From positions 62,001 through 126,000 of the IMG/VR virus record IMGVR_UViG_3300048597_000634: DNA of 64,000 nt; one strand, 5' to 3'. The stretch's first letter is position 1, and each line of letters begins with the position of its first letter. Positions 14,670 to 45,116 of the stretch are shown in pieces. The notes under the pieces were generated by a model. The model saw nothing but the letters and a program-made list of their open reading frames with translations, searched no databases and was not told the DNA's origin. A program made the position numbers and the translations under genes. Origin of the DNA: a virus.

Positions 14670-15185
14670 ATGGCTAGCATTACTTTACCTATTTCCCAGC
14701 TGGACCAGGCATACGGAGTGGATTTGTTACTAGATGGGTCTAAAGACTTATCTTTGGATACTTATGAGCCTGACTTGGCAGCAGTGGTAGGGCCTAAAAG
14801 TGTAGCTACTAGTCTTCGGCGACGTCTCACTACTACTCCTCAAGGTTTTACTCGTATGGTCAAGACTGTGGATGGGTATCGCGCCGTAGACGAAGGGTAT
14901 GGGTCTATCTTGATGTCTTTCTTGTCAGCACCTATTACTAGTCAATTTTTAGATGCTATTGTCGAGGAGGCAGAGAAGACTGCTTTACAAGACTTACGCA
15001 TTGCTAGCACTCAAGGCAATATTGTCGGTGTAGATATGAGTGAGGTTAAGTTACAGCTATACAGCACTGTGGAGCCTGAACCTATAGGTCAAGTAATTAC
15101 TGGAGAGTTTGACTTAAATGGCTTGCCGGTGGGCACTGTCAATACTAATTACCAATTTGTTCTGCCCTTAGGAGGCTTAAGTTAA
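14670..15185 (+). CDS. Baseplate wedge protein, gp25/GPW-like
   Basis: 171 residues. Residues 5-80 match the gp25-like layout: a strand with the phrase DLLLDGSKDLSL, then SVATSLRRRLTTTPQGFTRM, then the Tyr-Gly pair in EGYGS that follows the conserved 'RRLtTp-G' motif of the gp25/GPW family. Family members initiate sheath polymerisation at the baseplate periphery. It directly precedes the gpJ-like gene with a 1-base overlap (TTAATG), the usual W-J or gp25-gp6 pairing. Confidence 0.7.
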   Translation: MASITLPISQLDQAYGVDLLLDGSKDLSLDTYEPDLAAVVGPKSVATSLRRRLTTTPQGFTRMVKTVDGYRAVDEGYGSILMSFLSAPITSQFLDAIVEEAEKTALQDLRIASTQGNIVGVDMSEVKLQLYSTVEPEPIGQVITGEFDLNGLPVGTVNTNYQFVLPLGGLS

Positions 15186-26097: not shown

Positions 26098-26727
26098 ATG
26101 TACAACTCCAATCCACCACAATTAATAGATGTATATGGTCGGTCGGTAACTGCCGGGCAATTGAAATATACGCCCATAGTCATCCATTTCCGTCCATCGG
26201 CATTATCCCCTGATGGCTCATTTATCCAGAAGCCCAGTGAGTATTACTTGAAGATACATCCGCCGGCGGTGGTGCATCGAGGGGTGCAGAATATTATTCC
26301 AGAACCTTTTGTCTTAGAAGTGCCGCCGGATGGCTTTATCCGGTTACAGTTAGCGTCTAGTGCCGCCGAGTTGCCCAATGGTCATTACATAGTAGATTAC
26401 CACCGTAAAGGGGCGCGGGCACCGTTATTAGCCCAGCGGTGGCTAATCCCTGAGTTTGACGGTATGGAGTCTAGCCATGATTTTGTTTATACCGGGGCTA
26501 ATCCTTATGAGTTGCCTACTAATGTGTGGTTGGTGAGGTCAGTGGGGTCGAATGGTAATAATGTGTGGAGTTCTAACTATAATGTGTTGACTTGGCCTGG
26601 TGAGACACCGGTGCCTGGGGAGTATGTGCGCGTTGTATTTCAGCCAGCGCTGACTTTAGCAGATATTGTAGATAGCGACGATTTTGGGTTTGAGTCAGCT
26701 AAAGACTTAACTCGACGGCGTGCCTGA
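26098..26727 (+). CDS. Virion-module protein of unknown function
   Basis: 209 residues, between terminase and tape measure. Beta-rich, with RFVLEVPPDGFIRL and LPNGHYIVDYHRKG strands that resemble a small immunoglobulin-like or sandwich domain. The C-terminal 25 residues are acidic then basic (ending LTRRRA). Position upstream of the tape measure is where myoviruses put tape-measure chaperones, but size and composition do not settle it. Confidence 0.5.
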   Translation: MYNSNPPQLIDVYGRSVTAGQLKYTPIVIHFRPSALSPDGSFIQKPSEYYLKIHPPAVVHRGVQNIIPEPFVLEVPPDGFIRLQLASSAAELPNGHYIVDYHRKGARAPLLAQRWLIPEFDGMESSHDFVYTGANPYELPTNVWLVRSVGSNGNNVWSSNYNVLTWPGETPVPGEYVRVVFQPALTLADIVDSDDFGFESAKDLTRRRA

Positions 26728-26771: not shown

Positions 26772-29700
26772 ATGGCCGGGACTTTTGGGTATACCAGCGT
26801 CAATAATGACCACCAACTGAAGTTTAATGTGCCTGATCGGTTTAGTGCTAGTAGAACCGGTCAAGTACGCCCTGAGTCTGGCTCTAACCCCTACGTTGTA
26901 TATAGTGAGACCCACACAGTCTTTAATTTAGAGCAGTCCTTATCTAGATTTAAGCGAGGCACTGTAGAGACGGATAACTTTCTAGTTACTGCGCCCCCCG
27001 ATAGTTTCTTAGGGTGGGCTTTGGGTAAAACAGAAAGTCAAGTGTTGGCTAAACAGGGTGTTACTAGGGTTCAACAGAGTGAGTTCTCTTTTGGGGCTAA
27101 CAAGAGTAAAATACATGTCCCTGCTGAGACTCAGGGCATAGGCAGGCTTAGATCCTTTCTAGAACGAGTCAATCTTAATGGTGAGCCCCCTTTAGTTTCT
27201 GGCGCAGGTGTAGACCCTAACGTCCCTAAAGAGATTGAACAAAAACTAGCTCACTTTAAGATCACTACTGGAGATATAGATGCTGCTGCTCTAGGTCAAT
27301 ATGAAGGTATAACAGATGGTAACAATAGCCCAGTAGAAGCACCGACTAAAGTGGCAGTCCAAACTACTGCCATGTACGGCAACTATCAATTCCATGGCAC
27401 TTGGGGTATTGTTGGTGGCGCCCTATCGTTTAAACGTGATAGCTCAGGCATAACTGACTTAGGGCGTGGGGCCTACACTCAAGGCTATATGGACACTTCT
27501 ATCCACATAGAAGACCCTAGATATTTACGAATGGTCGATGACTGGAGTAAGGATAAATACGCCACTAGAGGAGTATTTAGAAGTGAAGACTATTCAAAAG
27601 AAGGTCAAGAGAAGTTAGAAGGCGTAAAGCTACTTCGTAACGTATCTATACATGAGGAAGCTATACGAGAAACAGCCGCTTATATTGAGGCGTTAAGTCC
27701 TCGCTCAGCCACTGCAGAACGGTTATCTGAAGGTAAGCAGATAACCAACAAAGATTTAGAGAATATCCGTAAAGAGTATGCAGAAGACTTAGAGGTTATT
27801 CAGTCTGATATGCAGGCGGCTGGCGCCATGTATTACATGAGTGGTCCGGCTATGGGTTACAACGAGACTAACTTGTCTGATAACACTGTAGCTGGCATAC
27901 GACGTCAACAAGTAAAGCAAACCCTAGACCAAATAGAGACTCTAAAGCAGCTGGGTATTAAGCCGGTCATTCATACAGATATTAACCGGATGGATATAGA
28001 TACTGGGTCTAAGCGCCGTCTGTTAGAAGAAGCCTATGTGGTTCAAACTCATACCTTTTTTGGGATGAGTCAACAGCAGGCCCACCACAACGTATCAGGG
28101 TTAGTAATCCCTAACCTGGACATAGACTCTCAGGCTGGTAGTAGGCTCAAAGAAGCAGGTTTAGCGTCGGAAAGCGGTCTGGCAGGATTTATAAGTTTGG
28201 GTACCGCCCGTTTGATTGGCTCCTTTGCCTATGAGATGGGTATCCAAGTAGATCTTGACGCTGCGCCAGACTCCTATGTTGACGCTATTATGGGGTCTAT
28301 TGGTCGGACATTAAACGTGGGGGCAGTATATCGTCAGCGTAAAGACGCTGCTTACCAAGGTCCCAGCGGCGCTGACTTATCATCTTTTTATAAACCCACG
28401 TATAGAGACGTAAGGAGCGGCAACTTCCAGGAGATTGGGTTACTACCAGTCATGCCTAATGAGATGCCCGACGATTTCTTTGAATACTACGGCGGGCTAT
28501 CCACCCGTATCTACTCCGATAGATACCAAGCTTTATACGGCACTAAAGCCACAGGAATGCAAGGTCACGTCTTAGAACGATTAGACGCCAAGCTAAGCGC
28601 GCCCGGCTTTGGTATGGGGCTCAACCAACTATTCCGACAAGACGATTTATACACCCCAGGACAGGGTTTAGCCGGCTTCCTAGCTACTAGTATTGGTAGG
28701 GTATTCGATACTGTTAGCGGGCATTATACGATGCAACGCATTAAGAAACAGCACGACGGGGATTTGTCCGGCTCTTTAGGGGAATACCAACAGAAGATTA
28801 TTGAGCAGGAACACTTCAGGGCTATAGAGCAGCGGGGCTTCTTTGAGAACTTATTCAATACCTTGACGACTACTATTGCCGATACGTCGCTGTCTATGGC
28901 TAGTTACTTTGGGGTTACTCACGCCTATAGTATTGCCAAAGCACAAATCGAAGACGCCGGTTCCAAACATATCCTTGATGTCGTTACTGGAGCAGTGGGC
29001 GAAGGTAAGGCACATACTAGTATCTTGATGTTAACTGGGGGGCACTCCAAGTTGTTTGAGGAGGCTAATCAGTTACATGAGTTGATGGACAAAGTCGGAG
29101 GCTTCGATAGCATTAAGTCTGCTTCATCACTTGGTGATTATCTGTTAGCCGTACAAGACTTCACTTCTGGGCAAGATGTAACTATAGCTGAGGGCGCTAC
29201 TGATAGCGTTTTTGGGTGGTATAAGAAAAAGAAAGATGTTGAAGGATTTATGCGGACTCCTACAGGCCCAGGCGCTGCACCAGTGTCAGCTTTAGGAGAG
29301 CAACAGCTGTTCGACTTTCTAGACGATATTTATAATGTAAAGCCCGGCTTGGACGATGACTTAGCCAGTCTAGTTAAAAAGAAATTAGGGCAGGCTAATA
29401 CAAATAGTATTGACCCAGCTGCCTTAAGGAAAGCTTACGCTAAAGCATTAGAGGAGATGGGTATAACTATAAACTTGCCTACTTCAGGTAACGCTCATGT
29501 AAGCGGCAGCGTTGAGTTAGCTAGGTCACTGGATAATGCTAATTCTGGTGCGATTCACATGCCAGATGCCGTTGGCTTTAGGAACATTAGGGCGGTACGC
29601 CGGCTAGACTCAGCCAATCTAACTAATATGTTCCTGCCGTTCTTAGATAACGCGGTAGACCTATCAACAGAGGCTAGTAAGGAAGGATATCTAAAGGCTC

Positions 29701-32700
29701 GGGAACAGCTAGTTGACTTAGCCCGCGCCAAACCTGTTCTAACCTTTGACTCTAGTGTCCAAGGTGAACACACCAATAAAATTCTCCACTACGGTTATGA
29801 TCGGCTAACGGACTTGGCCCGTACCTTCGACGACCTGGCTCAATACTTACCCGCCTATCCTCTACTATGGATTAAGCCCATACGAGACGCATTTAACCGC
29901 TATGAGTTAGCCCAAGGCAAAACTAAAGATGACATTCTTGGTACTAGACGCTCTTTTAGAGATCTAATCGGCCCGGGCTTTACTGGACTACTATCTTTAC
30001 AAGGGGAAGTAAGTAGAACCATAGGCAGCATAGCCCAAGTAGGTGTAGGCAAATATGTGACTAACACCTTGGAGGTGTTTAAACTACAAGGTCAGGCTTC
30101 TGTTCTAGAAGCTAAGATAGCTAACTCATTTAAAGAGTCATATAAGTTTATTGCTCAAGTTCACGGTGCCGCCAACAACGTTAACTTCGATGACGTACTT
30201 CAGGCATTTATAGATAGGCTACAAGATCCTAAAAAAAGCGGGATTAATCAACAAGACTTTGAGGAGTTAGCGAAGTTACATTCAGAAATAAGCCTGAAGA
30301 TTAATAAGACCCCAGGCTTGAAATACTCTACTGGGCATAACGAATTAGGGGCGCCTGGCGAGGACTCTTATGCCGGACTAAGGAAGTTCTTATTCAGTGC
30401 TGGTGCGGTGCTAATCGCTGACCGCATTATCGACCACTTCTTTATTAAGCCCCAAGGAGTGGACTTAGGCGATAGTCTAATGAGCCATATCTTCGGGACT
30501 GTCAGCCCTGAAGTAGAAGGCAGAGAAGAAGACGCTAAGGTATTAGCTGGCTATAGTCAAAACTATAGTCATACGGCGCCGGCTATATTCAAATATCCGG
30601 CAGCTACTGCAGGGTACGCCATAGGTGGTCTAGTTTTCCCTTCTGTATACCACCAAGCCAGTCATCTAAAGTATTGGACTTCTGCTACTAAGGGTAAGCA
30701 GTTCACCTCCGACCAAGTAGAGTTGGTCACCCAAGTAGCGTCTGGCATCACCCAGGGGTTACAAGGTATAACACCTAACGCTACTAAAGAGCAATTAGCC
30801 GAGGCGTTTGCTAAGGGTAGTGCTAATGCCTTTGCAGGGTCTAATAAGTTACGCTTTGGTTATGCCGGCGCTTTTGTGGGTGCATCCTTAGCACTATTAG
30901 CTACCCAAGCAATTACATCTGTAGTGGCTTCCACTTTAGAGCCACTGGTAGCCCTAGGGGATACAGCATTCCGTGGTCGTTGGCATGACCCCCGTAAAGG
31001 TTTAGAACTAGACCCGATTAAAGGTAGTGCGGCAGCCATATTTGCTAAAGCGCATAGACAAGGGGCTGCTAGGGCAGCAGCGTTATCTCAGAGGGCTGAG
31101 GCTCGTGGTGGTAAGGCTGGAGATTATATGGATTATACGTCTAGGGGAAGTATGGTAGTCGCCTGGCTATTATCCTCCTCTATGACGGTAAGCGCCCAGC
31201 AACCAGGTAGATTATTCTATCCATTTGCTACCCAAATAGCCGCGCCGTTCTACCAGTTCGCCATGGTAGGTAAGTTAGACCCCAGCTCTAACCAGATTAC
31301 TATGCAGTCTGGTTTGCAGCTGTTCCCACTATCTGGGGTGGGCTTTATGGTGCCGTCTATGTTCAACCCAGCTACTAAATACACCCCATCTATCGCCGAA
31401 CAATTCCTCATCAACCAATTAACAGACCTTACTCCCGGTATGAACCAACGGGCGTTAATCGGTGATGACTCCGACGTAGAGCAACGAAAAGAAGCCTATT
31501 CACTGTTAAAGGCATCGTCTGGGATATTATCGCTGGCGCTAGGGTCAGGGCTTAACCCTACGTTTGACTATAGACCGGTGATGTTTATTGGTGGGCTTAC
31601 TGCTTTACAGTCTGCAGAGCAGGTATTAGGTAAGTCTGTGGGCAGATTAAAGCCCGACTCTGCTTTATATAAAGAGCTGAAGAATTACGAGACTGTTTAC
31701 TCTATCGCGAGTATGGGGCTAAACGTAACAGATAAGTTAACACGAGGGGCGTTTTCTTTAAGCCTCACAGGAGTTAATTACCTAACTCACTCTATTACTG
31801 CCTTCTTAGGGCGCGGGGAATTGTCCTTATTTAAGGCAGGCCCCGCGGCTAGGAAACTAATGCCGTTTTATCTGAGTGCTATGTTAGTGGCGGGTATGTT
31901 ACGTCCTGGACAGACTACCACTGAACACCAAAGTGATCACATAGGCTCTTTGATTGAAAACCTTACGGAAGGTAATACTTTTGGTGCAGTGCGGTTAGAG
32001 CAAGACCATTTGACTAACTATGTGCTGGCTACGGCTATCGGGTCGGCGGGTTTTGGTGGCGCCCTTACTGCTTCAGGAGCATTTGAGAACGTAGCTGACT
32101 GGGCTAATGAGGCTGGTACGGGCTATATAGGTCTTAAGAAGCAAGAGATGTACAAGACTTACTTGGAGCATCTAGGAAAGATAGGTGTCTCTGTAGATGA
32201 TGCTGCTGATTTTAGAAAACAGTTGATGGTCAGCATTAAGCGTGGCGAGAACGTAACCACCCTATTATCCCAGGTTAACCGCCAGCAATTACCGCTATTA
32301 CAGTCCGGTGCCGCCCGCCTTGGTATGGCTTCTAGGGTCTTAGCCCCTATACTCTTAGGGTCGTTTGTGGCGGCTCAGTTCTTATCTCTGACGGACTTCT
32401 ATGACCACTCCAACCCAGTCAGTTACTTATTAAGGGGTCTTACTGATACTGGTCGTGGCGCTCAGATGACCTATGAACAGAAGGCGATGCTTTCTAACTT
32501 AGGCATTAAGGGTGCCAGATACCAACCCAAGAACGTAGGCGAGGCAGTCTCGAACGTAGGGGATTATCTCTTAAGGTCAGTATTCTTCATGGGTAACCCG
32601 TCTAAGTCCATGGGGACTTACCAGGATGCGCCGTCGCCGTTCTTGGGATTAGGCGGTCCTTTTGGGGTATCTGGTCAGCAGGATATGATGAAGTCCTATA

Positions 32701-35700
32701 TGCAGTCTCAGTCGGTGGCTGCTGACGTTAGTGGATCATTTTACTTAATGCCTGCTATGGCATCTGAGTTTAATAACGCTAAGTCCTTAGGTCCCCTATT
32801 AGCCGCCGCCCAGCGTAACCCTAACCTGACTGACTCTAGGGCAGTAGCCCTATACCGAGCCACGTTGATGCGTAAGTCCAGGGCTACGTATAAGAACAAT
32901 ATTAGTGCAGGTGAGTCTGCGGCTATTTCTAGCCCTACATTACAGATTGCCATTGGGCGCCGCTCAGATGAAGTAAGACGTCTTGCTTGGCAAACCGGCG
33001 AGGGTCATATGTTAGACCTGTTGACCACTATGGCTGCCGCAGGTCGGATTAAAACAGAGGCCACTACCAACTTTATTAGTAATGCCGGCGCTACTATATA
33101 TGACTTTGTGGGTAATAACTTCAGAATCCAACCTACTAACATCGCTGGTAATCCTGTTAGGTTTAGTATCCAGACTAATGCTGAGTTCGCCCGGGCTATG
33201 TGGACTATGGCTAAGGGCAGCAATACTCAGACTGACATCAACACGATGTTATATGACTCTGAGCGGGTACAAGACGCTGGGCCCAATCCTGTTACAGGGT
33301 ACTTCGGCAATATCATGAGTTACGCCTTTGGTACCTTTTATGACCGTACCTTAGATGAGTATGGCCCGAGCTTCCACAATATATTGCCCGCCGCCGCCCT
33401 AGCATTTAGTGCAGTGGGCTTAAGCGCCATGTTGACCGGTACGGCGATAACTTCGGTTGTACAGGGTATTGGGGCGCTAGGTGCCTTACAGGTGTATGGA
33501 ACGCTGGCCGACTCTGCTCGTAACTTAGACCAAGCGAGACAGAACGTCACTCATGTTATACAAAGCACTTCCTATGGCATCGGGCGCGATAACAAATTAA
33601 TGAAGCAAGTTGGCTCAGTGATGTCTGAGATGGATATGACCGGGGGCGTAACCGAGGAAGCCATTACTGCCTTAAATAGTGTTTTTGGTAAACGCAACCA
33701 AGTTGGTAGTTTAGGTAAGTTCAGTAACTCCCTAGCGGGTAAGGCCAGCCAACTAGCCTCTATGTCTGCTAGTAATACTAACGATATAACGGAGGTACTG
33801 CGGCAGATTAAAGCGGACTTCAACGATAGCGTTGAGGGTCTTCAGAAAGGCTTCAACATGTCAAACGACGCTTTCAAAGAGATGTTAGAGGGCATATTTG
33901 ATGCGACTGATAGCACTTTAGTAGCCGGCATCAATAATATTCTTCGCAACATGCCTCTGGAAGAAACCCGCCGACAAGAGATAGAAATCCTATTGTTGCA
34001 GCATATGCAGAATAATATGGACCCCTTGCGTAATACGTCGGGGTTTAAGCTGACTGATGCCGCCCCTAGCGATAAGTCTCGTATTGTTTATAACTCTCTA
34101 TCTGACAAAAAAACCATGAGCGCTAGCTCTGCGTTTATCAATACAGTATTAGACCAAGAAGGGTACTCTGGACTATTTAAACGGTCTACGGGAGGGCTAT
34201 TCCGGGCATCTTTTGCCATGTTTGATATGAAAGCTGCTTATGAGTTTGCCAGCTTTGCGGCGGCTTCCTCTGACCCTATGGATGAATTAGAACGCCGTCG
34301 GTCCTCTTATGCTGCCGCTGCCAGTCTATTCCAAACATTCGGGATGATTATCCCAGGTCAGGTAGTATTAGGCACCTTAGCTAAGAACCCGACCTTAGCT
34401 GTAGCAGCTATGGTCGCTGCGGTAGGTATTGGTAGTGTTGCCTATGCCAACAAGGGTTTTCGTAAAAAGGTCAGTAACTTCTTCAAGCCGAAGTTTAAGT
34501 GGGCAGACCGTAACATAATTAAGCCTACTATTAGGTCTATTGCCAGTGCTTTAGACGCAGTGGGAAGTATTGGCGCTGTCCAAACTATGCTATCTCCAGT
34601 ACGGGTTATTACCTCAGGCTTAGATCCTATGTTTACGAATATGCGGCGTAGGGCGGCGCGCATACCTGGGGTTAACTTCATAGCTGACATGTTCATCCCT
34701 GAGACCAAAGAATCGTTCTACGACCGGTGGTCTGAGCAGACACCCACTATGACCGCCTATGGTCCCCGCATGGAGTTATACACCCGTGCAGAGATAGAAC
34801 AAGACCGTAAGAATAGGATTGAATCTCGGCGACGCCGGGGCGGTCAATTAAACGCTGGCATTAGTGTTGAGTTAATGTCTGGATTCCTACAAGGTAGACC
34901 TGATTCTACTGAATTAGGTCGTATGAGGTTAGAGCGTTTAACCAAGGGCGCTGGGCGGGTAGCCAGTGAGCACATAGGGTATAGCTATGTAAGCCCCCTA
35001 ATTCATTTAGCGGTTAAGCGGCGTCAACAAGAGATAGACTCCTATGGCAATGCTCTACTTGGCCCGTTGGTTCCTGAGACTAGGGGGTCGGCGGCGCCCA
35101 TATTGTCTTTGTCAACTAGTGTTATGCGTTATAGCTTGCACAGCACTGGCAGTTTAATTCAAGCGCCTATGGATGTGGCAGGTAAGGGGGCGGCCATAAC
35201 CATAAAGTCTTTTGCTTGGCTGAATGACGCCTTTACTAAGGTGAAAGACAGTAAGTTAGTATTTGGTCTTATTGGGGGTGCTAAGGCAGCTCCTAATAAC
35301 CAAATGTTTACCTGGGCTGCCGCCGGCGTGATCGGCTCATCTATCTTGGCAGACCGTTTAGGTTGGACTCAAAAAGAAGATAAGAAATGGCAAACTGCCG
35401 GGCTGGTAATTGGGGCAGGCGCTACAGCGGCGGTGGCCAGACCCTATGCCGGCGCCGCCTTTAATATGCTAGCTGACCAAGATAACTTTGCCGGTAAGAA
35501 TATTCGTAAGCTACGTCGTATAAACATGAATGCCATTACTGACCTGGCGGTTAAGGTCGGTATGGGCGGTCTTAAATGGACTAAGGGGTTATTTAGTCAC
35601 GCATCACAGTGGGCAAGGACTCAATCATGGTCTCGCATAGCGGCTAATACCGGGTATAGTGGCGCTGCTATTGTCGGGGCAACAATGTTATTAAGCCCGG

Positions 35701-38700
35701 CGGTGGATGACTTTCTGGGTTGGGGTGAAGACCCTAAGAAAGAGAATGACCGTAAATTATTAGACCGTCGTAGGATGACGGCTATTGGAGTTACTGCAGG
35801 GGTGTCACTATTAGCTAGATTAGGAGCCACTTGGAAGCCTAACCTTGCAGGCTCAGCAGTTAACAAAGTAGGGGGCTCTGTCACACGATTAGCCACTTTT
35901 GGGGTTAGTACCTTAGCAGTGTTTAAGCTTAGTAAGGTAGTGATGGCTAATCAAATCACTGGGTTTGGATTTAACACTGCTTTTAACGTCGGCTATGGTT
36001 TGCTTAACTTAGAAGACGACGCACAAGGTCGGGCTAAAGCACAGGCCTATGAAGCTACCACGAGCACCATTGCTTTTGGTTTGACTGTGGGTTATGCATA
36101 TAACGTCTATGGTAAGGAATTAATAAATAAAGCTAGGGGTATAGCCCCGACGCATGTAGGCTGGGCTGCTTTCCGCCATAACGTTAAGTCTGGGCTTAAG
36201 AATATATTCACACCAGTTACCTTTGGAGCACCTTATTGGGGTCAGATAAGGGGTCTATTAGGGGGTGGTTGGAATGCGGTCTATAACTCGAATAATTTGG
36301 CTGGGCGGGCGCTAAGACCTACAGGTAGGTATTTAGGAATGGCTAAGGACATGCTGCCTAAACTACCCCCCGGTTGGAATGAGCCTGTTAATAAGTTCTT
36401 TGGTCGTAAGATTAATTGGTTAATCAACGCCCAGAATGCGGCTAACCCAACTAAGGCACAATACGCAGCCTTCGATGCTGAGCAGATAGGATTACGGGAA
36501 CCTGCCCGAAAATTAGCCATTAAGAAGTGGGGTACTGTAGCTAGCCATGCGGCGAAATTAACCCCATTGATTATGGATACGGCTACCATAGCCGCCGCCC
36601 ACCACCGATACACTAAAGTAGACCCTAAAGATCACCTTGGTAACTACAAGGAAGCCTACCGCGCATATTACCAGTCGTCGGCTATGACTGCGGTCAGTAG
36701 CGTGCTTAGTGCCATTAGTGGTGGTGATAAGAAAGTAGGTCTGGTTAGCACTTTGTTAACTACCACTCAAGTTAGTGATATTGCCGGACGTATGGCAGAA
36801 GAGTGGGCTACTAAAGACTTGTATTCAGGGCGGTTATTAACTGAACAACGTGCCGGTCAAGATAGTTACTTTAGTCCTGAGTCAGCTGCTGGCGTAGGAG
36901 CTTTAACGCTTAGTGCTGCAGCCACTGCGTCTTACTACAAAGTAGGGGTCTTTAAGTCAGCTCGTTGGGATAAGACCGCCAACTTTATGGCAACTCATGC
37001 TGGTCAAGTAGCCCAAACAGCCATTACTGCCTATAACTGGCAAGATACCTGGCGTGCTGGTCGGCAAAGATATAGTGGTACTAATCCTAACTACATTGCC
37101 GCACAGCGCAGTAGTGATTTGGGCAAAGGGGCATTATACGCGGCGGCTATGTTGTCCTTGGCGTCTAAGAATCCAAGTTCTGGAGGTAAGAATCTGGCGT
37201 TAAGGACTGCTGGGGTGGTAACCTTTACTGCTGCTGCTATGGCAATGGATAACACTGAGTCTTATTTTGCTAAGCAACATACCTTAGCTGTCCGAGAAGC
37301 AGGCATTAGGGATGTATATGTTAAGAACTTAATCCAACGGGAAGCCGCCGAATCTACCCTTGGTTATGGTGCTGCTGGGGCGGCTATAGCTGGTCTAACC
37401 GTAGCCTCGTTATTGGCTTTTAAAGGCAAAGGTACTCCTTTCTGGAGTAAGGCGTCTTATGCACTACTAAGTGCCGCTACTGGTGGTTCAGCGGCTAGTT
37501 TCTTCGGACATCAGTGGCAATTAAATAAGGGTATCCAGAAGTATAAGGATGGTATTACTCCTGAGCAATATTTAGAACGGCAGCGGTGGATAGACAATGG
37601 TGCGTATACCCCAGATAGTTGGCGCAACACTGACCAGAACCGAATGCAATGGTTGTTATGGAATACTGATTCGGTTAATGCCCGTAATCAGGTTCGCCGT
37701 GGGCGAACGGGTGCGGCTATAGGATTAGGTAACTTGAGTAGTAGCTATGTGACTCCTGATATGATAGCCGCCGCCCAAGATCGGGAGTTAAGAGCACGTT
37801 ATGGCCAGCCTATTACCTTTACCAGTACCGTTCAGTTTGTCGGTGGGGCTACTATACTTGCTGCTAATACTTTCCGATATGAGAAGGGTTTAGGCGCGGT
37901 AGGGGTTACATTTAGGCAACATATTAAGCCTACAGCCACTTTGTTTGATACGGTAGCGGGCTCTGCTAAAGATATGAGTCTTTGGCAGAAAGGTAAGTCT
38001 ATTGGTGGGTCTACACTAAACGCAGGATTCCAAGCATTACCCCTAATGTCGTATTACTTTGCTGCTCAAGGTGCTAAGGAGCAAATCACTAAGCATTCTG
38101 GACGTTATAGTTCTGGACGTATGACTACCGCCCAATACTTACAGGCTACTGCTTTGAGTAGAAGGGCGTATATGGCTCGTAGTGAGGCGCTATATGACGC
38201 CTATTTGCCGGGTTCGTCTAGTATAATGCGGTCGATTATAAGCGGCGTGGCTTTTGGTGCAGCCAAGGGTGCCTTATCAGGCGTCTTAGACTCCAAAGCC
38301 ATTGATGATGAGCGTCGGTGGATTGAGCGTAATAAAGAGGGGCTAAACCTTAGTAGTCTGAACCTAGCTAAAGCCAACCGTGCGTCCAGAAAATATCTAA
38401 CTGGTGGTAGTGGTACTGATAAGGTAGTCGGATTGGCTACCGGTGTAACCACTTTAAGTATCAACCTGTCAGCTGGTTTCATCACTGGTGGTCCTGTTGG
38501 TATATTCACTGGACTAATCACTAGTATTGTGCCAGGGTTACAGAACCAAGCCATCGCTAAGGCGAATATATCTAGACATAGGGCGCGCAATGTATTGCTA
38601 GAGAAAGGTAATGAAGTAGGGCATGAAGGGATATTAGACGACCTGAGTGGTATTGGAGCTGATGGTTATGGAATGATGGCGCTTAACATGGGGATTAGCT

Positions 38701-41700
38701 CGGGGGCGAGTTATTTAGTTAAGCGTATTCGTGAATACCATAAAACAAAGAAAGCCAAAGAAGCTTTAGAGAGTAAGCGACCTGGTGCTTCTCCTGATGT
38801 AATTAATAATACGTCAGATGATGGTGATGTTGGGCGCGGTGGCGGGACGGATGACGCTGGTGGCGACGGAGTCCTTAGCCCCAGACCCGGCGGGGGTGGG
38901 GACGGTGGTAGTGTAGGTCCTGCACCTACTTTGAAAGATGCTGATGATAGAGCGTCTACTAGAGCAGTTTTAGACACCAGTAATACTTCTATGTCTACTG
39001 AAGAAGTGAAGGCGGTCATGTCTAGAGGTAATGTTTCTGTAGAGCAGTATGAAGGTAAGTCTAAGTCTCTACAAGAGTACCATTCCGAGAAGATAGAAAT
39101 TTACGATAAGAAGATAAATGCGTTAAATACTGAGAGATCAGCGTTGTCAGCAGAAATAGACGGCTTAATTACAGAAAGGCTAAGGTTAGATGACGCGTAT
39201 CAAAACTCGTCGGTTACCGGCGGTAAAGAGGTGTATGAAGCTATAGAAGCGTCACATAATGCCTCATTGAAGCAGTTAGACGATAAGTTAAAGCAAGTCG
39301 ACCAGAGAATAGTAGAGATTGACCGTACAATAAACGCCCATAGTAAAGGGAGGGTCGCGTCTCAAACTATCATTAGTGAGTTGGGTACTGCGTATACTAT
39401 CAGGCACCAGCAGTTTAATATGCCAGCGCCCGCACCCGACCTGGTAATAACTCCACAACCTTCTCCGACAGTTGTCGGCCCCCAGCCTACCCTAGAGCCG
39501 CCTGTAAGCCGTGGCGGAACTACAGTAGCTCAACCTGTTATGCGTGGGCGGAATGCTATTGTCACTGATCTTGGTGACGGTACTGTGAGAAAGACATTAG
39601 TGCCTGACGGACCTAACCCACAGATAGCTAACAATATTCAAGTTGAGGCTGCGATACAACGTAAAATGGCCATCTTTGGCGTATCTCCAGACGTAAGGTC
39701 AGTTAACGTAGATTCTTTTGTCATGCGTAAAGTTACAGGGCACGCAGTAAGTCCTCTAACTGGAGAGGCTCTAACAGCTTCTAGACTAATAGCGGCTAGA
39801 AAGTTAGCTTTATTACATAGTCTGGGTGTTGTACACGGTGATGTACACTCTGGCAACATACTTACATCACCAGACGGCACTAAAGCTACGGTTTTAGATT
39901 ACGGTTACTCTAGATTAGCCAGTGTAGAAGAAGCTTACTCTATGCTGAGCGACAATGTAACCGTAGATAGACTCAAGAATAATGAATTTACGTCTAGGCC
40001 TATGGCTGACGGGTCACTGGGACCTCGTACAGTTGGGTCTGACCTGTCTGGGCTAATCAATATGTCTGGGTCTGACTCTGAGGAAGTATTGAAAGTATAT
40101 AAAAGTGAAATGGACCGTCACCGGCGTATGCCTGATAGTGACAATGTCTTTAAACTAAATGAGTTGGGACTACCTCCTGAAATAGAAGCCCAGGTCAAAT
40201 GGACAAACTCATCCGAGATAACCCTGAATAATGGTAACTTGGCATCTAGGGGTGCTGACATTGTTGAACCTATCATTGCACAACCCCAACAATCTACTCA
40301 GGCTAGTAGACCTATTACTAGTGCCCAAGAGATAATTAATAGATCGGGCGGTGGGTCTTCTGTGCCTACTACACCTCAACCCTCAATAGAATCTCATGTA
40401 AAGCTTGGTAGCGGGTCTACATCCTCGGCACCCAACCCAGTTATCTCCCAACCAGAACTCTTGGATACTGATAATAAAGTGGTCGGCGCCCCTGTAGAGC
40501 CTGACCAGATTGTAGCTAAGGGCGGTGCTAATATGGTGAGTCCAATGCCATCACAAAATCTTGGTACCACTACTAACCCCTTACCTAACGTATCCAACTA
40601 CGATAACAATGTAGTATCTAATCCTTTAGACCAGACACCTAGTGGTTTAAACAAGCAGCAGCCTGGCGGTTACATAAACCTAGGCTCAGACTCTATCAGA
40701 CCTAATGACCCAGTCACTATCATAAGTCGGTCTGGGCGCGGTCTCGTAGGTAATGCCATAGACTCCGTTAAAGAAGCAGATTGGCAAACCCGCGGCACCT
40801 ACGCTAGCAACACTGTTAGCGCTGGTATGGCTACCTTTAACCTCTACCGAGGTGTCACTACCTTAGCTAAGAAAAACACCACAGGCTTTGAAAAGTCCTA
40901 CGGGTTTGAATACTTAAGTCAATCTGGCGCTGGCTACGCTACTACTTACCTCACCATTAAAGGCGGGCTTAAAGCGACTAAGGCGCTGCCTTACCTAAAC
41001 TATGCTAGTGATGCTATCTCATTAGCTTATGGGAGTCATCGTCTTAATACAGCTACTACTGAAGCTGAATATATTAAAGCTAAGGGGGATGTAGGCGGCG
41101 CCATTGGTGGGTTGGCCGGTAATGTTGCTGGGCAGGGTATTGGTTGGCTGGTTGGCGGTGCTATTGGTGCAGGTATTGGTGCTGTCATCGGCTTCTTTGG
41201 TGGTTTTGGTATAGGTGCCGGTGTGGGTGCCGCCGCAGGATTTAAGATAGGCTCGTCTATAGGGTCTATAGTCGGTTCTATCGCTGGCTCTATGTACGGG
41301 GAGCAAGTAGGTAGAGACTGGGTCACTAAGAATAAGTATGGTGCCGGCGATGCCGTAGAAGTGTTCGACCTTACTGGTAAATATAAGAAGACTCAGGAGG
41401 ATAAGGAGCAGCGTAGAGCAGCGTCCATGGCTAGACACGATGGCGGACCTAAAGTGTCTTATGTCAAACCGAAGGCTACTACTGGTACTAAAGCTACTGC
41501 GGTTAAGAGAGTAACCAAACCCATGAGACCTGGGTCTAATACGTCAAAGAATGGGGGAACTCGGTCTGGTGTTGATGGGCCAACGAATAATATAGTGTCG
41601 TTTAACCCGCTTAGTAACGTACCTGGGTTGGACTTGTTCTTTCCTAAACCAGCGGCGGCTAGTGATGTTATACCCACAAGCGCAAAGGTTTATACGGAAC

Positions 41701-44700
41701 CTACCCTTCCTAAAGATATCAAGAATGTAGACGTTGATGTAACATCACGGTCTTTAGAATCTAAGACCCAGGAAGAAAAGGAAGAGATAGAAAATAAGCA
41801 GTGGTATGAAGGGCTCTTTGAAGGGCTGGCAGCAATGGGTCGGAATATGACCAATACCATCAACAAGGCAGCTGAGTATGTAGGTGATTTAATTGGCGAC
41901 GCCTGGAATTTTGTGACGGGTGGGGGCGCTGACGCTACCTTTGCCGATGGTAAGTTTAGCGGAAGTATGGCTCCGTTGTTTAACCTCATTCATAAATATG
42001 AGTCGCCTGGCGCCGGCTTTGATGCGTTAAATCCTTCTACAACGGGTACTGCTGTGTATGGTAAACCTCTAACTGAGACTACTATCGGAGAGATTATGGA
42101 TAGGTCTCCACGAGGTGGCGGACGCGCCAGTGGTATGTTTCAGTTTATGCCTTGGATTAATGGCAAAGAAGGGACGCTATATAGCGCCATGAAAGCTGCA
42201 GGTTATACCAGAGACACAGTCTTTACTGCCGAAGTACAGACTAATATGGCCATTAAATTTTTGCCTAAGCACAGACCTGAATTATGGGCGTATTTAACAG
42301 GTAAGTCTGACAATATCAACGCAGCTATGGATGACTTTGCTCGTGAGTGGGCTGCATTCCCTAACTCTAGAGATACAGGTGCTTATTCAGGACAACGTTC
42401 TGCTGGATTTGAAGAAACCAAGCAGGCATTAATAGAAACTCGTAAGTTAGTTATGGCTTCTGGCTCTGCGGAGGCAGGGTTTCAAACTGGAGCTGCTAGA
42501 GTAGGGGGCGTAGTTAAGACTAACGTGAAGACTATTCGTGATGGGGGTGGCACTCCTTATCACATTGATATGATGTTTGACCGAAGCACGTCATGGGAAC
42601 AAAGGGTTCAGGTTTTTGACCAACTAGCCGCTGGTTATGCTGCAATGGGTCGTCGCATTGAGTTTAGTAATAGTGCTGTTTCTGGTCTTGTATACCGAAC
42701 TAATCTTACCCAGAAGCAGAAAATCGACATGTTAAAGCGTGTAGAGTCTGCTCATAGTAATAGAAAAGGTGGTAGCGGTCGTGCCGCCATGGACTTTTTT
42801 GTCCCGCAAGAAGGTCATGCTAGATGGACAGGCGGACCAGCCACTAGCGGCTCAGGGGCTAACGTTGAGTATTTATTACCGGTCATTGAAGGTGGTTATT
42901 ATACTGTGGGTGCCAAAGGTCGTTCAGGTCAACATATTCAAGCTTTTGATGCTAGTGGTAAGAAGATATATGAGTTCTTTCACGGTGGTGGTGGTCAGCA
43001 AGGACGATTTAATTTTTCTGGTGCTGGTAGCGGCGGCTCTATGCCACAAGCAACACAACAAAATAGACCGCCCCATCCTCTCACTAGAGGTGAAAAGAAA
43101 GTTACTAGTGGCACTACCGGAAAAGGTCAATCAGGCAGTGTTACCCACTTTAAATATGAAGAATACACAGGCAAACGGGTAAGCGTTGGTAACAACCAAA
43201 CTATGGCAGAGCCCGCTGCCATCGCATTTAAGAAAATGCAAGAAGCCGCCGCTAAAGAAGGCGTAACGTTACAAGCTCGTAGTGGCTTCAGGTCAGTTAA
43301 AGAACAAGGAGAGGTCTTTAAACGAGGCCTAGATAGAAGAGAAGGCAATGTTTACGAAAATACTTTATATATTGCCCCTGCCGGATATTCAGAGCATGCC
43401 ACGGGTTACGCCATCGATATTACGGGTACTCTCAGTGAAGGTCTAACTGCTGCTGTAGCTGATACCGCCGCCGGCAAATGGTTGGCAGCTAACTCTGCCA
43501 AGTTCGGCTATCAAATGTCTTTCCCTAAAGGAAATGCCGACGGCGTCACTTATGAGCCTTGGCACTTTAGGTTTATGGGTGATTACTACGAAGGTAGTGA
43601 ACCTGATACGTCTACTGACGGAGTTTATGTACCCAGTGAGGGTGGTAGTATAACTCGACAACGACCCCAACGACGAAAAGTAACTTCCTGGGCTGAGCGG
43701 GAACGTCGTGCACAAGAACGCATTAAGTCTGGTCAGGTTAGGCGTGAAGTTAATATCGGAACACCAGCTAAAAATAATGGTGTACGTCAAGGCGGTGCCA
43801 AGGTACAGACTAAAGCTGAAGAGCTGCCCAAGAATATTCAGACTAATGATGTACCTGCCATGTCTAATGACCGTCGTGGTGTTAGTGGCTCTAGCGGGGG
43901 CTCGGGCGGAGGTGGTGGCGCCGGGGGCGGTAGTTCTGTAATAAGTGGACCCGTTTACACTCAGGGAGATTTAGGGTCTCCGGGAGCATTCCACTTTGAC
44001 ATCAAACGAGTCGAAGGCGGGTTTTATGAACGTGATTACCTAGACAATTATGTCCAAGTAAATGGTAAGCCTATAGGCACAGGTATTACAGTTAAGGGTG
44101 GAGAGTACGGAGCCCCTAGGTCTTACGGTGGTCATGGTGGCTGGGACTATGCCTTTGGGGATAAGAATGCCGGGCTTAGTCTTGTTAATGGTGCCCGCTT
44201 AATCAGCGTTACACCCACTAAGACCTATGGTGATAAGCTAATATTCCAGCTTCCTACTGGAGAACAGTTCGCTATTATCCATGGACGAGCTACTGCCTTG
44301 GGTAAAGATTCCGCTGGAGCGGAAGGAGCATATGCTCAAACTGATGGCTCGGTCAGTTTGGCTAGTGGCGGTGGGGGCCGTGGCGGTTACAGATATATGC
44401 AGCCGCCTCGTAGAAAAGTCACTTCCTGGGCTGAGCGAGAACGTCGGGCTCAGGAACGTATTAGATCTGGTCAAGTTGTAAGGCAGTCTTACGTTACTAA
44501 CCCAAGTAGAACCCGTAATAACCAAGTGAGACCCGGCGGCAACATTACCCAAAGCGGCGGCGGTTTTGGTTGGTTAAAGCTACCTTCCTTCTTTAGACCG
44601 CAATCTACTAACCAAGACAAAGTTTCAGCGATATATGAACCTGATGCTAAACGTAATGCTCGCCAGAAAGACTTACTCAAGACTATTCCTTCTAACCAGA

Positions 44701-45116
44701 AAGACTTAGACGTAGATGAAATCCTTGACACTAAGGTTACCCAGGCTTCAGATGAGGCTATGTCTAATGCAGAGATTATCGGTAATGTAATCGCTGAGGC
44801 GGCGGCCAAAGCCTATAAACAAAAACAAGAAGCCACCCCAGAAAAAGCCGTTCATCATATTACTAACGTCCAACGTCCGGCGGAGACTGCCCTTAACGTT
44901 AACAGCTACTCGCGGGCCATCACCAGTAACATTACCCGTGCTACTAAAACACAAACTGTTTATCAACCGGACAACGACCAAAATGTTATCTTGGTCAGCT
45001 CTCAAGTAGACCACACTATGGTAAATGTCAATGTGGCTAACAGTGGAATTAAATCGCCGTGCGGGTGGCAGATGGCGGGTAAGAAACAAAGAGTACAGGG
45101 ACCTTGTGTTGCCTAA
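26772..45116 (+). CDS. Giant tape-measure protein (6,114 aa) with kinase-like and cell-wall-cutting domains
   Basis: One unbroken 18.3-kb gene. N-terminal 1,200 residues are soluble and helical. Roughly 1,250-3,950 contain dozens of Ala/Gly-rich hydrophobic segments typical of tape measures. About 4,000-4,160 is a charged coiled-coil-like stretch (SEKIEIYDKKINALNTERSA). A protein-kinase-like domain follows (4,257-4,440; K4274, E4292, H4355-G-D4357, N4362, D4376-Y-G). A glycine zipper lies at 4,775-4,843. Then come a lysozyme/transglycosylase-like domain (catalytic-type E5077), a VanY-like DD-carboxypeptidase (H5542, H5598) and an M23-like peptidase (H5788, D5792, H5837). Tape measures set tail length, and those with wall hydrolases help injection. 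By the usual rule of about 0.15 nm per residue, even the first 4,250 residues would span several hundred nm. ATG at 26772; the stop overlaps the integrase stop. Confidence 0.85.
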   Translation: MAGTFGYTSVNNDHQLKFNVPDRFSASRTGQVRPESGSNPYVVYSETHTVFNLEQSLSRFKRGTVETDNFLVTAPPDSFLGWALGKTESQVLAKQGVTRVQQSEFSFGANKSKIHVPAETQGIGRLRSFLERVNLNGEPPLVSGAGVDPNVPKEIEQKLAHFKITTGDIDAAALGQYEGITDGNNSPVEAPTKVAVQTTAMYGNYQFHGTWGIVGGALSFKRDSSGITDLGRGAYTQGYMDTSIHIEDPRYLRMVDDWSKDKYATRGVFRSEDYSKEGQEKLEGVKLLRNVSIHEEAIRETAAYIEALSPRSATAERLSEGKQITNKDLENIRKEYAEDLEVIQSDMQAAGAMYYMSGPAMGYNETNLSDNTVAGIRRQQVKQTLDQIETLKQLGIKPVIHTDINRMDIDTGSKRRLLEEAYVVQTHTFFGMSQQQAHHNVSGLVIPNLDIDSQAGSRLKEAGLASESGLAGFISLGTARLIGSFAYEMGIQVDLDAAPDSYVDAIMGSIGRTLNVGAVYRQRKDAAYQGPSGADLSSFYKPTYRDVRSGNFQEIGLLPVMPNEMPDDFFEYYGGLSTRIYSDRYQALYGTKATGMQGHVLERLDAKLSAPGFGMGLNQLFRQDDLYTPGQGLAGFLATSIGRVFDTVSGHYTMQRIKKQHDGDLSGSLGEYQQKIIEQEHFRAIEQRGFFENLFNTLTTTIADTSLSMASYFGVTHAYSIAKAQIEDAGSKHILDVVTGAVGEGKAHTSILMLTGGHSKLFEEANQLHELMDKVGGFDSIKSASSLGDYLLAVQDFTSGQDVTIAEGATDSVFGWYKKKKDVEGFMRTPTGPGAAPVSALGEQQLFDFLDDIYNVKPGLDDDLASLVKKKLGQANTNSIDPAALRKAYAKALEEMGITINLPTSGNAHVSGSVELARSLDNANSGAIHMPDAVGFRNIRAVRRLDSANLTNMFLPFLDNAVDLSTEASKEGYLKAREQLVDLARAKPVLTFDSSVQGEHTNKILHYGYDRLTDLARTFDDLAQYLPAYPLLWIKPIRDAFNRYELAQGKTKDDILGTRRSFRDLIGPGFTGLLSLQGEVSRTIGSIAQVGVGKYVTNTLEVFKLQGQASVLEAKIANSFKESYKFIAQVHGAANNVNFDDVLQAFIDRLQDPKKSGINQQDFEELAKLHSEISLKINKTPGLKYSTGHNELGAPGEDSYAGLRKFLFSAGAVLIADRIIDHFFIKPQGVDLGDSLMSHIFGTVSPEVEGREEDAKVLAGYSQNYSHTAPAIFKYPAATAGYAIGGLVFPSVYHQASHLKYWTSATKGKQFTSDQVELVTQVASGITQGLQGITPNATKEQLAEAFAKGSANAFAGSNKLRFGYAGAFVGASLALLATQAITSVVASTLEPLVALGDTAFRGRWHDPRKGLELDPIKGSAAAIFAKAHRQGAARAAALSQRAEARGGKAGDYMDYTSRGSMVVAWLLSSSMTVSAQQPGRLFYPFATQIAAPFYQFAMVGKLDPSSNQITMQSGLQLFPLSGVGFMVPSMFNPATKYTPSIAEQFLINQLTDLTPGMNQRALIGDDSDVEQRKEAYSLLKASSGILSLALGSGLNPTFDYRPVMFIGGLTALQSAEQVLGKSVGRLKPDSALYKELKNYETVYSIASMGLNVTDKLTRGAFSLSLTGVNYLTHSITAFLGRGELSLFKAGPAARKLMPFYLSAMLVAGMLRPGQTTTEHQSDHIGSLIENLTEGNTFGAVRLEQDHLTNYVLATAIGSAGFGGALTASGAFENVADWANEAGTGYIGLKKQEMYKTYLEHLGKIGVSVDDAADFRKQLMVSIKRGENVTTLLSQVNRQQLPLLQSGAARLGMASRVLAPILLGSFVAAQFLSLTDFYDHSNPVSYLLRGLTDTGRGAQMTYEQKAMLSNLGIKGARYQPKNVGEAVSNVGDYLLRSVFFMGNPSKSMGTYQDAPSPFLGLGGPFGVSGQQDMMKSYMQSQSVAADVSGSFYLMPAMASEFNNAKSLGPLLAAAQRNPNLTDSRAVALYRATLMRKSRATYKNNISAGESAAISSPTLQIAIGRRSDEVRRLAWQTGEGHMLDLLTTMAAAGRIKTEATTNFISNAGATIYDFVGNNFRIQPTNIAGNPVRFSIQTNAEFARAMWTMAKGSNTQTDINTMLYDSERVQDAGPNPVTGYFGNIMSYAFGTFYDRTLDEYGPSFHNILPAAALAFSAVGLSAMLTGTAITSVVQGIGALGALQVYGTLADSARNLDQARQNVTHVIQSTSYGIGRDNKLMKQVGSVMSEMDMTGGVTEEAITALNSVFGKRNQVGSLGKFSNSLAGKASQLASMSASNTNDITEVLRQIKADFNDSVEGLQKGFNMSNDAFKEMLEGIFDATDSTLVAGINNILRNMPLEETRRQEIEILLLQHMQNNMDPLRNTSGFKLTDAAPSDKSRIVYNSLSDKKTMSASSAFINTVLDQEGYSGLFKRSTGGLFRASFAMFDMKAAYEFASFAAASSDPMDELERRRSSYAAAASLFQTFGMIIPGQVVLGTLAKNPTLAVAAMVAAVGIGSVAYANKGFRKKVSNFFKPKFKWADRNIIKPTIRSIASALDAVGSIGAVQTMLSPVRVITSGLDPMFTNMRRRAARIPGVNFIADMFIPETKESFYDRWSEQTPTMTAYGPRMELYTRAEIEQDRKNRIESRRRRGGQLNAGISVELMSGFLQGRPDSTELGRMRLERLTKGAGRVASEHIGYSYVSPLIHLAVKRRQQEIDSYGNALLGPLVPETRGSAAPILSLSTSVMRYSLHSTGSLIQAPMDVAGKGAAITIKSFAWLNDAFTKVKDSKLVFGLIGGAKAAPNNQMFTWAAAGVIGSSILADRLGWTQKEDKKWQTAGLVIGAGATAAVARPYAGAAFNMLADQDNFAGKNIRKLRRINMNAITDLAVKVGMGGLKWTKGLFSHASQWARTQSWSRIAANTGYSGAAIVGATMLLSPAVDDFLGWGEDPKKENDRKLLDRRRMTAIGVTAGVSLLARLGATWKPNLAGSAVNKVGGSVTRLATFGVSTLAVFKLSKVVMANQITGFGFNTAFNVGYGLLNLEDDAQGRAKAQAYEATTSTIAFGLTVGYAYNVYGKELINKARGIAPTHVGWAAFRHNVKSGLKNIFTPVTFGAPYWGQIRGLLGGGWNAVYNSNNLAGRALRPTGRYLGMAKDMLPKLPPGWNEPVNKFFGRKINWLINAQNAANPTKAQYAAFDAEQIGLREPARKLAIKKWGTVASHAAKLTPLIMDTATIAAAHHRYTKVDPKDHLGNYKEAYRAYYQSSAMTAVSSVLSAISGGDKKVGLVSTLLTTTQVSDIAGRMAEEWATKDLYSGRLLTEQRAGQDSYFSPESAAGVGALTLSAAATASYYKVGVFKSARWDKTANFMATHAGQVAQTAITAYNWQDTWRAGRQRYSGTNPNYIAAQRSSDLGKGALYAAAMLSLASKNPSSGGKNLALRTAGVVTFTAAAMAMDNTESYFAKQHTLAVREAGIRDVYVKNLIQREAAESTLGYGAAGAAIAGLTVASLLAFKGKGTPFWSKASYALLSAATGGSAASFFGHQWQLNKGIQKYKDGITPEQYLERQRWIDNGAYTPDSWRNTDQNRMQWLLWNTDSVNARNQVRRGRTGAAIGLGNLSSSYVTPDMIAAAQDRELRARYGQPITFTSTVQFVGGATILAANTFRYEKGLGAVGVTFRQHIKPTATLFDTVAGSAKDMSLWQKGKSIGGSTLNAGFQALPLMSYYFAAQGAKEQITKHSGRYSSGRMTTAQYLQATALSRRAYMARSEALYDAYLPGSSSIMRSIISGVAFGAAKGALSGVLDSKAIDDERRWIERNKEGLNLSSLNLAKANRASRKYLTGGSGTDKVVGLATGVTTLSINLSAGFITGGPVGIFTGLITSIVPGLQNQAIAKANISRHRARNVLLEKGNEVGHEGILDDLSGIGADGYGMMALNMGISSGASYLVKRIREYHKTKKAKEALESKRPGASPDVINNTSDDGDVGRGGGTDDAGGDGVLSPRPGGGGDGGSVGPAPTLKDADDRASTRAVLDTSNTSMSTEEVKAVMSRGNVSVEQYEGKSKSLQEYHSEKIEIYDKKINALNTERSALSAEIDGLITERLRLDDAYQNSSVTGGKEVYEAIEASHNASLKQLDDKLKQVDQRIVEIDRTINAHSKGRVASQTIISELGTAYTIRHQQFNMPAPAPDLVITPQPSPTVVGPQPTLEPPVSRGGTTVAQPVMRGRNAIVTDLGDGTVRKTLVPDGPNPQIANNIQVEAAIQRKMAIFGVSPDVRSVNVDSFVMRKVTGHAVSPLTGEALTASRLIAARKLALLHSLGVVHGDVHSGNILTSPDGTKATVLDYGYSRLASVEEAYSMLSDNVTVDRLKNNEFTSRPMADGSLGPRTVGSDLSGLINMSGSDSEEVLKVYKSEMDRHRRMPDSDNVFKLNELGLPPEIEAQVKWTNSSEITLNNGNLASRGADIVEPIIAQPQQSTQASRPITSAQEIINRSGGGSSVPTTPQPSIESHVKLGSGSTSSAPNPVISQPELLDTDNKVVGAPVEPDQIVAKGGANMVSPMPSQNLGTTTNPLPNVSNYDNNVVSNPLDQTPSGLNKQQPGGYINLGSDSIRPNDPVTIISRSGRGLVGNAIDSVKEADWQTRGTYASNTVSAGMATFNLYRGVTTLAKKNTTGFEKSYGFEYLSQSGAGYATTYLTIKGGLKATKALPYLNYASDAISLAYGSHRLNTATTEAEYIKAKGDVGGAIGGLAGNVAGQGIGWLVGGAIGAGIGAVIGFFGGFGIGAGVGAAAGFKIGSSIGSIVGSIAGSMYGEQVGRDWVTKNKYGAGDAVEVFDLTGKYKKTQEDKEQRRAASMARHDGGPKVSYVKPKATTGTKATAVKRVTKPMRPGSNTSKNGGTRSGVDGPTNNIVSFNPLSNVPGLDLFFPKPAAASDVIPTSAKVYTEPTLPKDIKNVDVDVTSRSLESKTQEEKEEIENKQWYEGLFEGLAAMGRNMTNTINKAAEYVGDLIGDAWNFVTGGGADATFADGKFSGSMAPLFNLIHKYESPGAGFDALNPSTTGTAVYGKPLTETTIGEIMDRSPRGGGRASGMFQFMPWINGKEGTLYSAMKAAGYTRDTVFTAEVQTNMAIKFLPKHRPELWAYLTGKSDNINAAMDDFAREWAAFPNSRDTGAYSGQRSAGFEETKQALIETRKLVMASGSAEAGFQTGAARVGGVVKTNVKTIRDGGGTPYHIDMMFDRSTSWEQRVQVFDQLAAGYAAMGRRIEFSNSAVSGLVYRTNLTQKQKIDMLKRVESAHSNRKGGSGRAAMDFFVPQEGHARWTGGPATSGSGANVEYLLPVIEGGYYTVGAKGRSGQHIQAFDASGKKIYEFFHGGGGQQGRFNFSGAGSGGSMPQATQQNRPPHPLTRGEKKVTSGTTGKGQSGSVTHFKYEEYTGKRVSVGNNQTMAEPAAIAFKKMQEAAAKEGVTLQARSGFRSVKEQGEVFKRGLDRREGNVYENTLYIAPAGYSEHATGYAIDITGTLSEGLTAAVADTAAGKWLAANSAKFGYQMSFPKGNADGVTYEPWHFRFMGDYYEGSEPDTSTDGVYVPSEGGSITRQRPQRRKVTSWAERERRAQERIKSGQVRREVNIGTPAKNNGVRQGGAKVQTKAEELPKNIQTNDVPAMSNDRRGVSGSSGGSGGGGGAGGGSSVISGPVYTQGDLGSPGAFHFDIKRVEGGFYERDYLDNYVQVNGKPIGTGITVKGGEYGAPRSYGGHGGWDYAFGDKNAGLSLVNGARLISVTPTKTYGDKLIFQLPTGEQFAIIHGRATALGKDSAGAEGAYAQTDGSVSLASGGGGRGGYRYMQPPRRKVTSWAERERRAQERIRSGQVVRQSYVTNPSRTRNNQVRPGGNITQSGGGFGWLKLPSFFRPQSTNQDKVSAIYEPDAKRNARQKDLLKTIPSNQKDLDVDEILDTKVTQASDEAMSNAEIIGNVIAEAAAKAYKQKQEATPEKAVHHITNVQRPAETALNVNSYSRAITSNITRATKTQTVYQPDNDQNVILVSSQVDHTMVNVNVANSGIKSPCGWQMAGKKQRVQGPCVA
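39540..40090 (+). other. Protein-kinase-like domain inside the tape measure
   Basis: Residues about 4,257-4,440. Hallmarks in order: Gly-rich strand (DLGDGTVRK) with K4274, a helix glutamate E4292, the catalytic loop HGDVHSGN (4355-4362) and the metal-binding DYG at 4376-4378 in place of DFG. HGDxHxxN is the loop of the atypical kinase families (RIO, ABC1, APH, Bud32). The Lys, Glu, catalytic-loop Asp and DYG Asp are all kept, so ATP binding and catalysis look possible. Sequence inspection only; no profile search done. Confidence 0.7.
41094..41300 (+). other. Glycine-zipper segment in the tape measure
   Basis: Residues about 4,775-4,843 are almost continuous G-x-x-x-G repeats with Ala, Ile and Val (IGGLAGN...GAIGAGIGAVIG). 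Such zippers insert into membranes; here it could form a channel or anchor in the inner membrane during injection. Confidence 0.7.
41949..42460 (+). other. Lysozyme/transglycosylase-like domain in the tape measure
   Basis: Residues about 5,060-5,230. The pattern NLIHKYES with E5077 matches the catalytic Glu-Ser of lytic transglycosylase and GH24/SLT-type folds. It is followed by a GxFQFMP-type segment (ASGMFQFMPW) and a Q-x-x-MAIKFL helix. It likely cuts glycan strands at injection. Fold family not resolved further. Confidence 0.65.
43150..43600 (+). other. VanY-like (M15) peptidase domain in the tape measure
   Basis: Residues about 5,460-5,610. Shows SGFRSVKEQ, then SEHATGYAIDI with H5542 and the Asp seven residues on, then EPWHFRFMG with H5598. 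These are the zinc ligands of M15 DD-carboxypeptidases, which cut peptide cross-links. Confidence 0.85.
43671..43742 (+). repeat. Linker repeat, copy 1, after the VanY domain
   Basis: Codes RRKVTSWAERERRAQERIKS, a charged helix. A second copy with one Lys/Arg exchange lies at 44409-44480 after the M23-like domain. The DNA differs at many third positions, so the duplication is old and kept by selection. Confidence 0.85.
43960..44345 (+). other. M23-like peptidase domain in the tape measure
   Basis: Residues about 5,730-5,860. GGHGGWDYAFG gives H5788 and D5792 (the H-x-x-x-D of LytM-type endopeptidases), and FAIIHGRA gives H5837, matching the third ligand. The first His of the usual H-x-H pair is not seen, so activity is uncertain. 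Confidence 0.55.
44409..44480 (+). repeat. Linker repeat, copy 2, after the M23-like domain
   Basis: Partner of 43671-43742; codes RRKVTSWAERERRAQERIRS. It follows a hydrolase domain just as copy 1 does, so a 'domain plus linker' unit was probably duplicated. Confidence 0.85.

Follow-up and report, generated by a model that had tools for sequence, protein, structure and literature searches.

A 6,114-residue viral protein of the Ma-LMM01 gp120 family with a conserved core and a variable, enzyme-bearing C-terminal extension

The tail and packaging operon of a contractile-tailed virus ends in an open reading frame of 6,114 codons. What does this frame encode, and does its length tell anything about the tail? 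The initial annotation read the product as a tape measure, whose 4,250 residues ahead of a kinase-like domain would, at 0.15 nm each, give a tail of about 600 nm, unless a large share of the protein is packed in another way. The window analysed here comprises 64,000 nucleotides, namely bases 62001-126000 of the 205,544-base virus record IMGVR_UViG_3300048597_000634, and its main features are collected in Table 1.

Table 1. Features of the tail and packaging region and of the giant ORF (window positions; residues are those of the giant ORF).
Feature	Positions	Strand	Evidence
Tail sheath, 1,198 aa; known sheaths matched by C-terminal half only	629..4225	+	profile/sequence match
Probable tail tube, adjoins sheath	4268..5071	+	41% identical to Ma-LMM01 gp092
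Baseplate J-like wedge protein	15185..16279	+	sequence/profile match
Terminase large subunit	24299..26077	+	35% identical to Ma-LMM01 gp118
209-aa gene, position of Ma-LMM01 gp119	26098..26727	+	gene-order comparison
Giant ORF, 6,114 aa, Ma-LMM01 gp120 family	26772..45116	+	single open frame, homology to relatives
Variable N-terminal part, residues 1-532	26772..28367	+	boundary set by core profile
Conserved core, residues 533-2790, predicted helical, near-constant length in family	28368..35141	+	core profile, alignment, models
Extension first part, residues 2791-4224: Ala-rich, hydrophobic, helix-compatible	35142..39443	+	composition, G001 comparison
Small Bud32/APH-like kinase domain, about residues 4258-4420	39543..40031	+	HGDVHSGN and DYG motifs, profiles
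Glycine-zipper, membrane-like segment, residues 4645-4767	40704..41072	+	sequence; 85% identity in G001
Lysozyme-like domain, residues 5062-5225	41955..42446	+	tblastn to cyanophage lysozyme-like proteins
VanY D-Ala-D-Ala carboxypeptidase domain, residues 5477-5603	43200..43580	+	PF02557

The giant frame runs from an ATG directly preceded by GGGGA to its stop codon with no internal stop, and it occupies 28.7% of the window, in line with the 29% first noted. At the same composition, a stop-free run of this length would arise by chance with a probability of about 10^-146. The closest relative, G001, is collinear with residues 1-4010 at 65% identity, its own copy being ended at 4,659 aa by the edge of its contig. 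In this comparison dN lies between 0.14 and 0.54 and synonymous sites are near-saturated in each 400-codon block, so that the entire frame is translated and selected; the giant ORF is real, conserved and under purifying selection. An assembly or frameshift artefact is ruled out by the intact frame and this dN pattern, and repeat expansion by the finding that the sole internal duplication is a short linker (residues 5614-5679 and 5856-5927). An opposite-strand ORF of 357 aa (45113-46186, -), recombinase-like by eye, overlaps the 3' end of the giant ORF by 4 bases.

The sheath was indeed found to be unusually long, as first noted, when compared with the 774 aa of its Ma-LMM01 match, gp091. Only its residues 721-1184 match known sheaths; the first ~720 residues (629-2800) match none and may form a large insertion or a decoration domain. 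Together with those of the probable tube and of the terminase to gp092 and gp118, this match marks the record, at the sequence level, as distantly related to Microcystis and Microcoleus phages. Some cyanophages carry the marker genes NblA and PsbA. Since neither gave a match when looked for in this virus, kinship is the sole ground on which a cyanobacterial host is suggested. The gene after the fibre (21934-22965) contains near-identical 'LSNWDVSNGTDFSYMF' repeats, BspA-like by eye, and a tRNA at 47063-47131 (-) was detected by Rfam and missed by ARAGORN.

Other giant ORFs of the record lie outside the window. The second (C1:35305-51330, -; L080/L081) encodes 5,341 aa; its GDYDGD motif resembles the catalytic DxDGD of RNA polymerases, and the protein might possibly be a virion-packaged giant polymerase. 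Ma-LMM01 gp080 (3,562 aa) occupies a similar place on the minus strand and carries GDFDGD; blastp detected no homology between the two. The third (C1:13169-22729, -; L079/L080) encodes 3,186 aa with GDSDGD and a C-terminal Dda/PIF1-like helicase, and a GDADGD motif is found in Ma-LMM01 gp064 (1,673 aa).

The giant ORF of the window belongs, by sequence and gene order, to a family whose named-phage members are Ma-LMM01 gp120 (2,898 aa), MaMV-DC gp119 (2,806 aa), MaMV-DH01 UWV19772 (2,899 aa) and Microcoleus phage My-WqHQDG WOL31340 (4,151 aa). All four are annotated as hypothetical, and the Ma-LMM01-group records give no role. The order of terminase, a gene of about 210 aa and the giant gene, on one strand, is the same here and in all relatives. 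Further members were collected from IMG/VR via the terminase, with complete giant ORFs of 2,898-9,530 aa; none was found in genome contigs. One terminase ORF (L007, 8330-12730; 1,466 aa) has two intein-looking insertions, LAGLIDADG-like and HNH-like, ending HN. A core profile built from 11 members of the extension clade, with the Ma-LMM01 group left out, finds gp120 as three collinear pieces (E 1.5e-6, 3.2e-5 and 5.4e-4), as well as My-WqHQDG, G019, G020 and G021. The core end in Ma-LMM01 is approximate, because the last core quarter was aligned to it in-sample only.

Comparison within the family separates a stable part from a variable one. Across 14 members the core measures 2,194 +/- 77 residues (CV 4%), against 2,845 +/- 1,554 (CV 55%; range ~90 to 6,650) for the C-terminal extension, and total length follows extension length with r = 0.996. 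The extension accounts thus for nearly all of the length variation in the family. Longer cores, of about 2,840-3,030 residues, occur in four sister-group members. The core of the present phage has ~2,260 residues and is followed by a C-terminal remainder of ~3,320, the first part of which is less conserved than the core and ends in a charged/Gly-rich linker. The three Microcystis phage proteins share the homologous core and its position on the late strand, but their extension amounts to just ~110 aa and bears no enzyme domains. My-WqHQDG shares core homology and gene order as well; unlike the giant ORF, it owes its length to an extended N-terminal part and an enlarged core, and its wall enzymes are encoded by separate genes.

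The extension of the giant ORF carries several recognizable domains. The kinase-like domain of the initial annotation holds at the sequence level, through its motifs and through profile matches that are significant (1.8e-7, NCBIfam Bud32) and stay under the curated cut-offs. It is restricted to the giant ORF and G001, both of which keep the HGDxHxxN and D[YF]G motifs intact. PF02557 identifies the VanY domain with E 1.7e-33 (115.6 bits vs a cut-off of 25). By eye, an HGGWDYAF stretch close to the C-terminus resembles M23; it was rejected as such, PF01551 finding no match in this genome. Wall enzymes are present in most extensions of the family, where M23, amidase, transglycosylase, deacetylase and nuclease domains are also met. 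The G007 protein (L061) is a single chain in which a DNA/RNA non-specific endonuclease accompanies polysaccharide deacetylase, amidase and phage lysozyme domains; G003 has a weak SLT, M23, VanY, beta-lactamase and DPBB, and G002 has DPBB and SprT. M23 is found as well in the extensions of G004, G010, G011, G012 and G016. The longest member, G017 (L067/L068, IMGVR_UViG_3300032301_000632; 9,530 aa in one open frame), has an extension in which a hydrophobic hairpin of ~120 residues is repeated to 10 copies; no such repeats were found in the giant ORF.

Some of these enzymes also exist as free genes. In Ma-LMM01, My-WqHQDG and G019, all of which are devoid of the extension, M23 is encoded by free frames of 412-439 codons within the baseplate region, whereas it lies within the giant protein in six extension members, only G011 having an extra free copy. 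VanY is free in G019 and inside the giant protein here and in G003, with a free VanY-like ORF elsewhere in G010. In the terminase tree, a single branch with 100/100 support separates the fused from the free states, which therefore reflect one evolutionary change and not many independent ones. This pattern supports a connection between the C-terminus of the giant protein and a tail tip or baseplate-enzyme job, and favours a tape-measure-like role; we regard it as the strongest argument for a function of the protein in the tail.

How far, then, does the giant ORF look like a tape measure? Its size, its predicted helicity, its six strongly hydrophobic segments, its C-terminal wall enzymes and its synteny in all relatives make that part of the initial annotation plausible. 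Among the products of the late tail operon, no other is both very long and predicted to be helical, and no further late gene as large as a tape measure is shared with Ma-LMM01. Two sets of other candidates were rejected: gp108 and gp109 of Ma-LMM01 seem rich in beta structure and lack a counterpart here, and the two genes that follow the tube, of 572 and 537 aa, encode products too short to span a tail of 200 nm. On the other side, PF10145 and phrog_12 gave no match, nor did any Pfam, PHROG or NCBIfam tape profile reach its cut-off; PF20155 (TMP_3), of which the giant ORF is the sole match in the genome, scores 15.5 bits vs a cut-off of 41. The gene comes after the terminase, about 22 kb past the tube, and not between the tube/chaperone genes and the baseplate. 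Because the profiles and the usual gene position are unmatched, the reading as a tape measure goes no further than an inference; with a deviating length ratio in addition, canonical membership is not claimed.

That ratio comes from MaMV-DH01, whose tail measures 230 nm in the text and 260 nm in the abstract of its description (PMC9927357). With its 2,899-aa homologue this corresponds to 0.079-0.090 nm per residue, about half of the 0.15 nm figure, at which such a tail would need 1,530-1,730 residues, fewer than the core alone provides. Scaled in the same way, the whole giant ORF would give about 485-550 nm. If instead the core fixes the length, the tail of this phage would be near that of its relatives. 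The tape measure of Thermus phage P74-26, of about 5,000 residues, shares the extreme length of the giant ORF. P74-26 is however a siphovirus, and its tail is truly that long, at nearly 1 um (PMC10034513). Bacillus phage G gp183 is, like the giant ORF, a very long myovirus protein, helical as predicted for the core here, and its C-terminal glucosaminidase and M23 can be counted as a likeness to the C-terminal domains found here. Unlike the giant ORF, its gene follows the tube and chaperone genes and its 2,893 residues fit a 450 nm tail, each accounting for 0.155 nm (PMC8570332); the two proteins show no detectable homology.

Structural predictions describe the core as helical and discontinuous. 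AlphaFold2 models have 61% helix for residues 540-1500 (pLDDT 66; longest helix 50 residues) and 67% for residues 1580-2779 (pLDDT 51; longest helix 61 residues), broken in both cases. These broken helices, and the Gly/Pro/Asp/Arg positions conserved throughout its length, suggest folded domains and not a simple rod. Fold searches of the core against viral and PDB libraries gave no significant match, and PDB profile searches weak coiled-coil matches only. Both tape measures and internal virion proteins occur among the insignificant fold matches, and these predictions do not separate the two readings.

The explanation that we prefer, at slightly better than an even chance, is that of a gp120-family, tape-measure-like tail protein with C-terminal cargo, whose core in the tube sets an ordinary length. 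The core, perhaps together with the N-terminus, would occupy the tail tube and fix the tail at roughly 200-260 nm, with the C-terminal residues positioned toward the tail tip. Upon sheath contraction, the lysozyme-like, VanY and membrane-type segments and the small kinase would act on the wall or enter the host. The suggestion of a different packing for a large part of the protein thus fits better than a very long tail, the core being shared with MaMV-DH01 and the surplus lying in variable cargo. Since this core is shared with Microcystis phages having tails of 230-260 nm, the extra length is most likely an exchangeable load of wall-cutting and other enzymes, not the sign of a record-long tail. 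A broader proposal, put forward tentatively, is that a tape measure has become a delivery vehicle in this family: the fixed core would set tail length. The cargo (wall enzymes, kinase, nuclease, membrane-hairpin repeats), which reaches about 6,650 residues and could not fit in the tail as one straight helix beside the core, would be stowed folded and delivered, so that the length of the protein would no longer be coupled to that of the tail.

The main rival, which we regard as rather unlikely, is an internal virion protein of the pilot or ejection type, carried in the head and injected along with the DNA to aid envelope crossing, with no role in tail length. The halved length ratio in MaMV-DH01, the helical folded domains with conserved polar positions, the kinase cargo here and the nuclease cargo in G007, and the internal virion proteins among the weak fold matches all speak for it. 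Phage polyvalent and internal ejection proteins are likewise giant and multidomain and carry enzymes delivered with the DNA; the giant ORF differs from them in its place at the end of the tail/packaging operon, and no polyvalent-protein-associated domain was found in it. Such a role would moreover leave the late operon without a tape-measure candidate, and it sits badly with an M23 domain swapped with a baseplate-cluster gene. Phage lambda gpH undergoes proteolytic maturation, a precedent for a tape measure precursor that is cut to a much shorter tape, its C-terminal enzymes being released or kept apart. Low-complexity linkers between the domains, and a length surplus already seen in the 2,899-aa homologue, would suit this scheme; it is improbable nonetheless, as no protease or cleavage site was identified and the chain stays single across the family. 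Finally, a continuous tape of ~4,250 residues in a tail of ~600 nm lacks positive support and is very improbable: phage G proves that very long contractile tails exist, and residues 2791-4010 are helix-compatible in composition, but the MaMV-DH01 tail speaks against that calculation, length variation is restricted to the C-terminal cargo side, and the models, of low confidence, have no continuous rod.

If the preferred explanation is right, a likely role would be given to an unnamed protein family of Ma-LMM01-like phages, in which tape length would fail to predict tail length, contrary to the usual rule. Caution would then be called for when tail lengths are inferred from the lengths of metagenomic ORFs. 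The family would also offer natural pairs, from 2,898 to 9,530 residues on one core, for the study of tail length and enzyme delivery.
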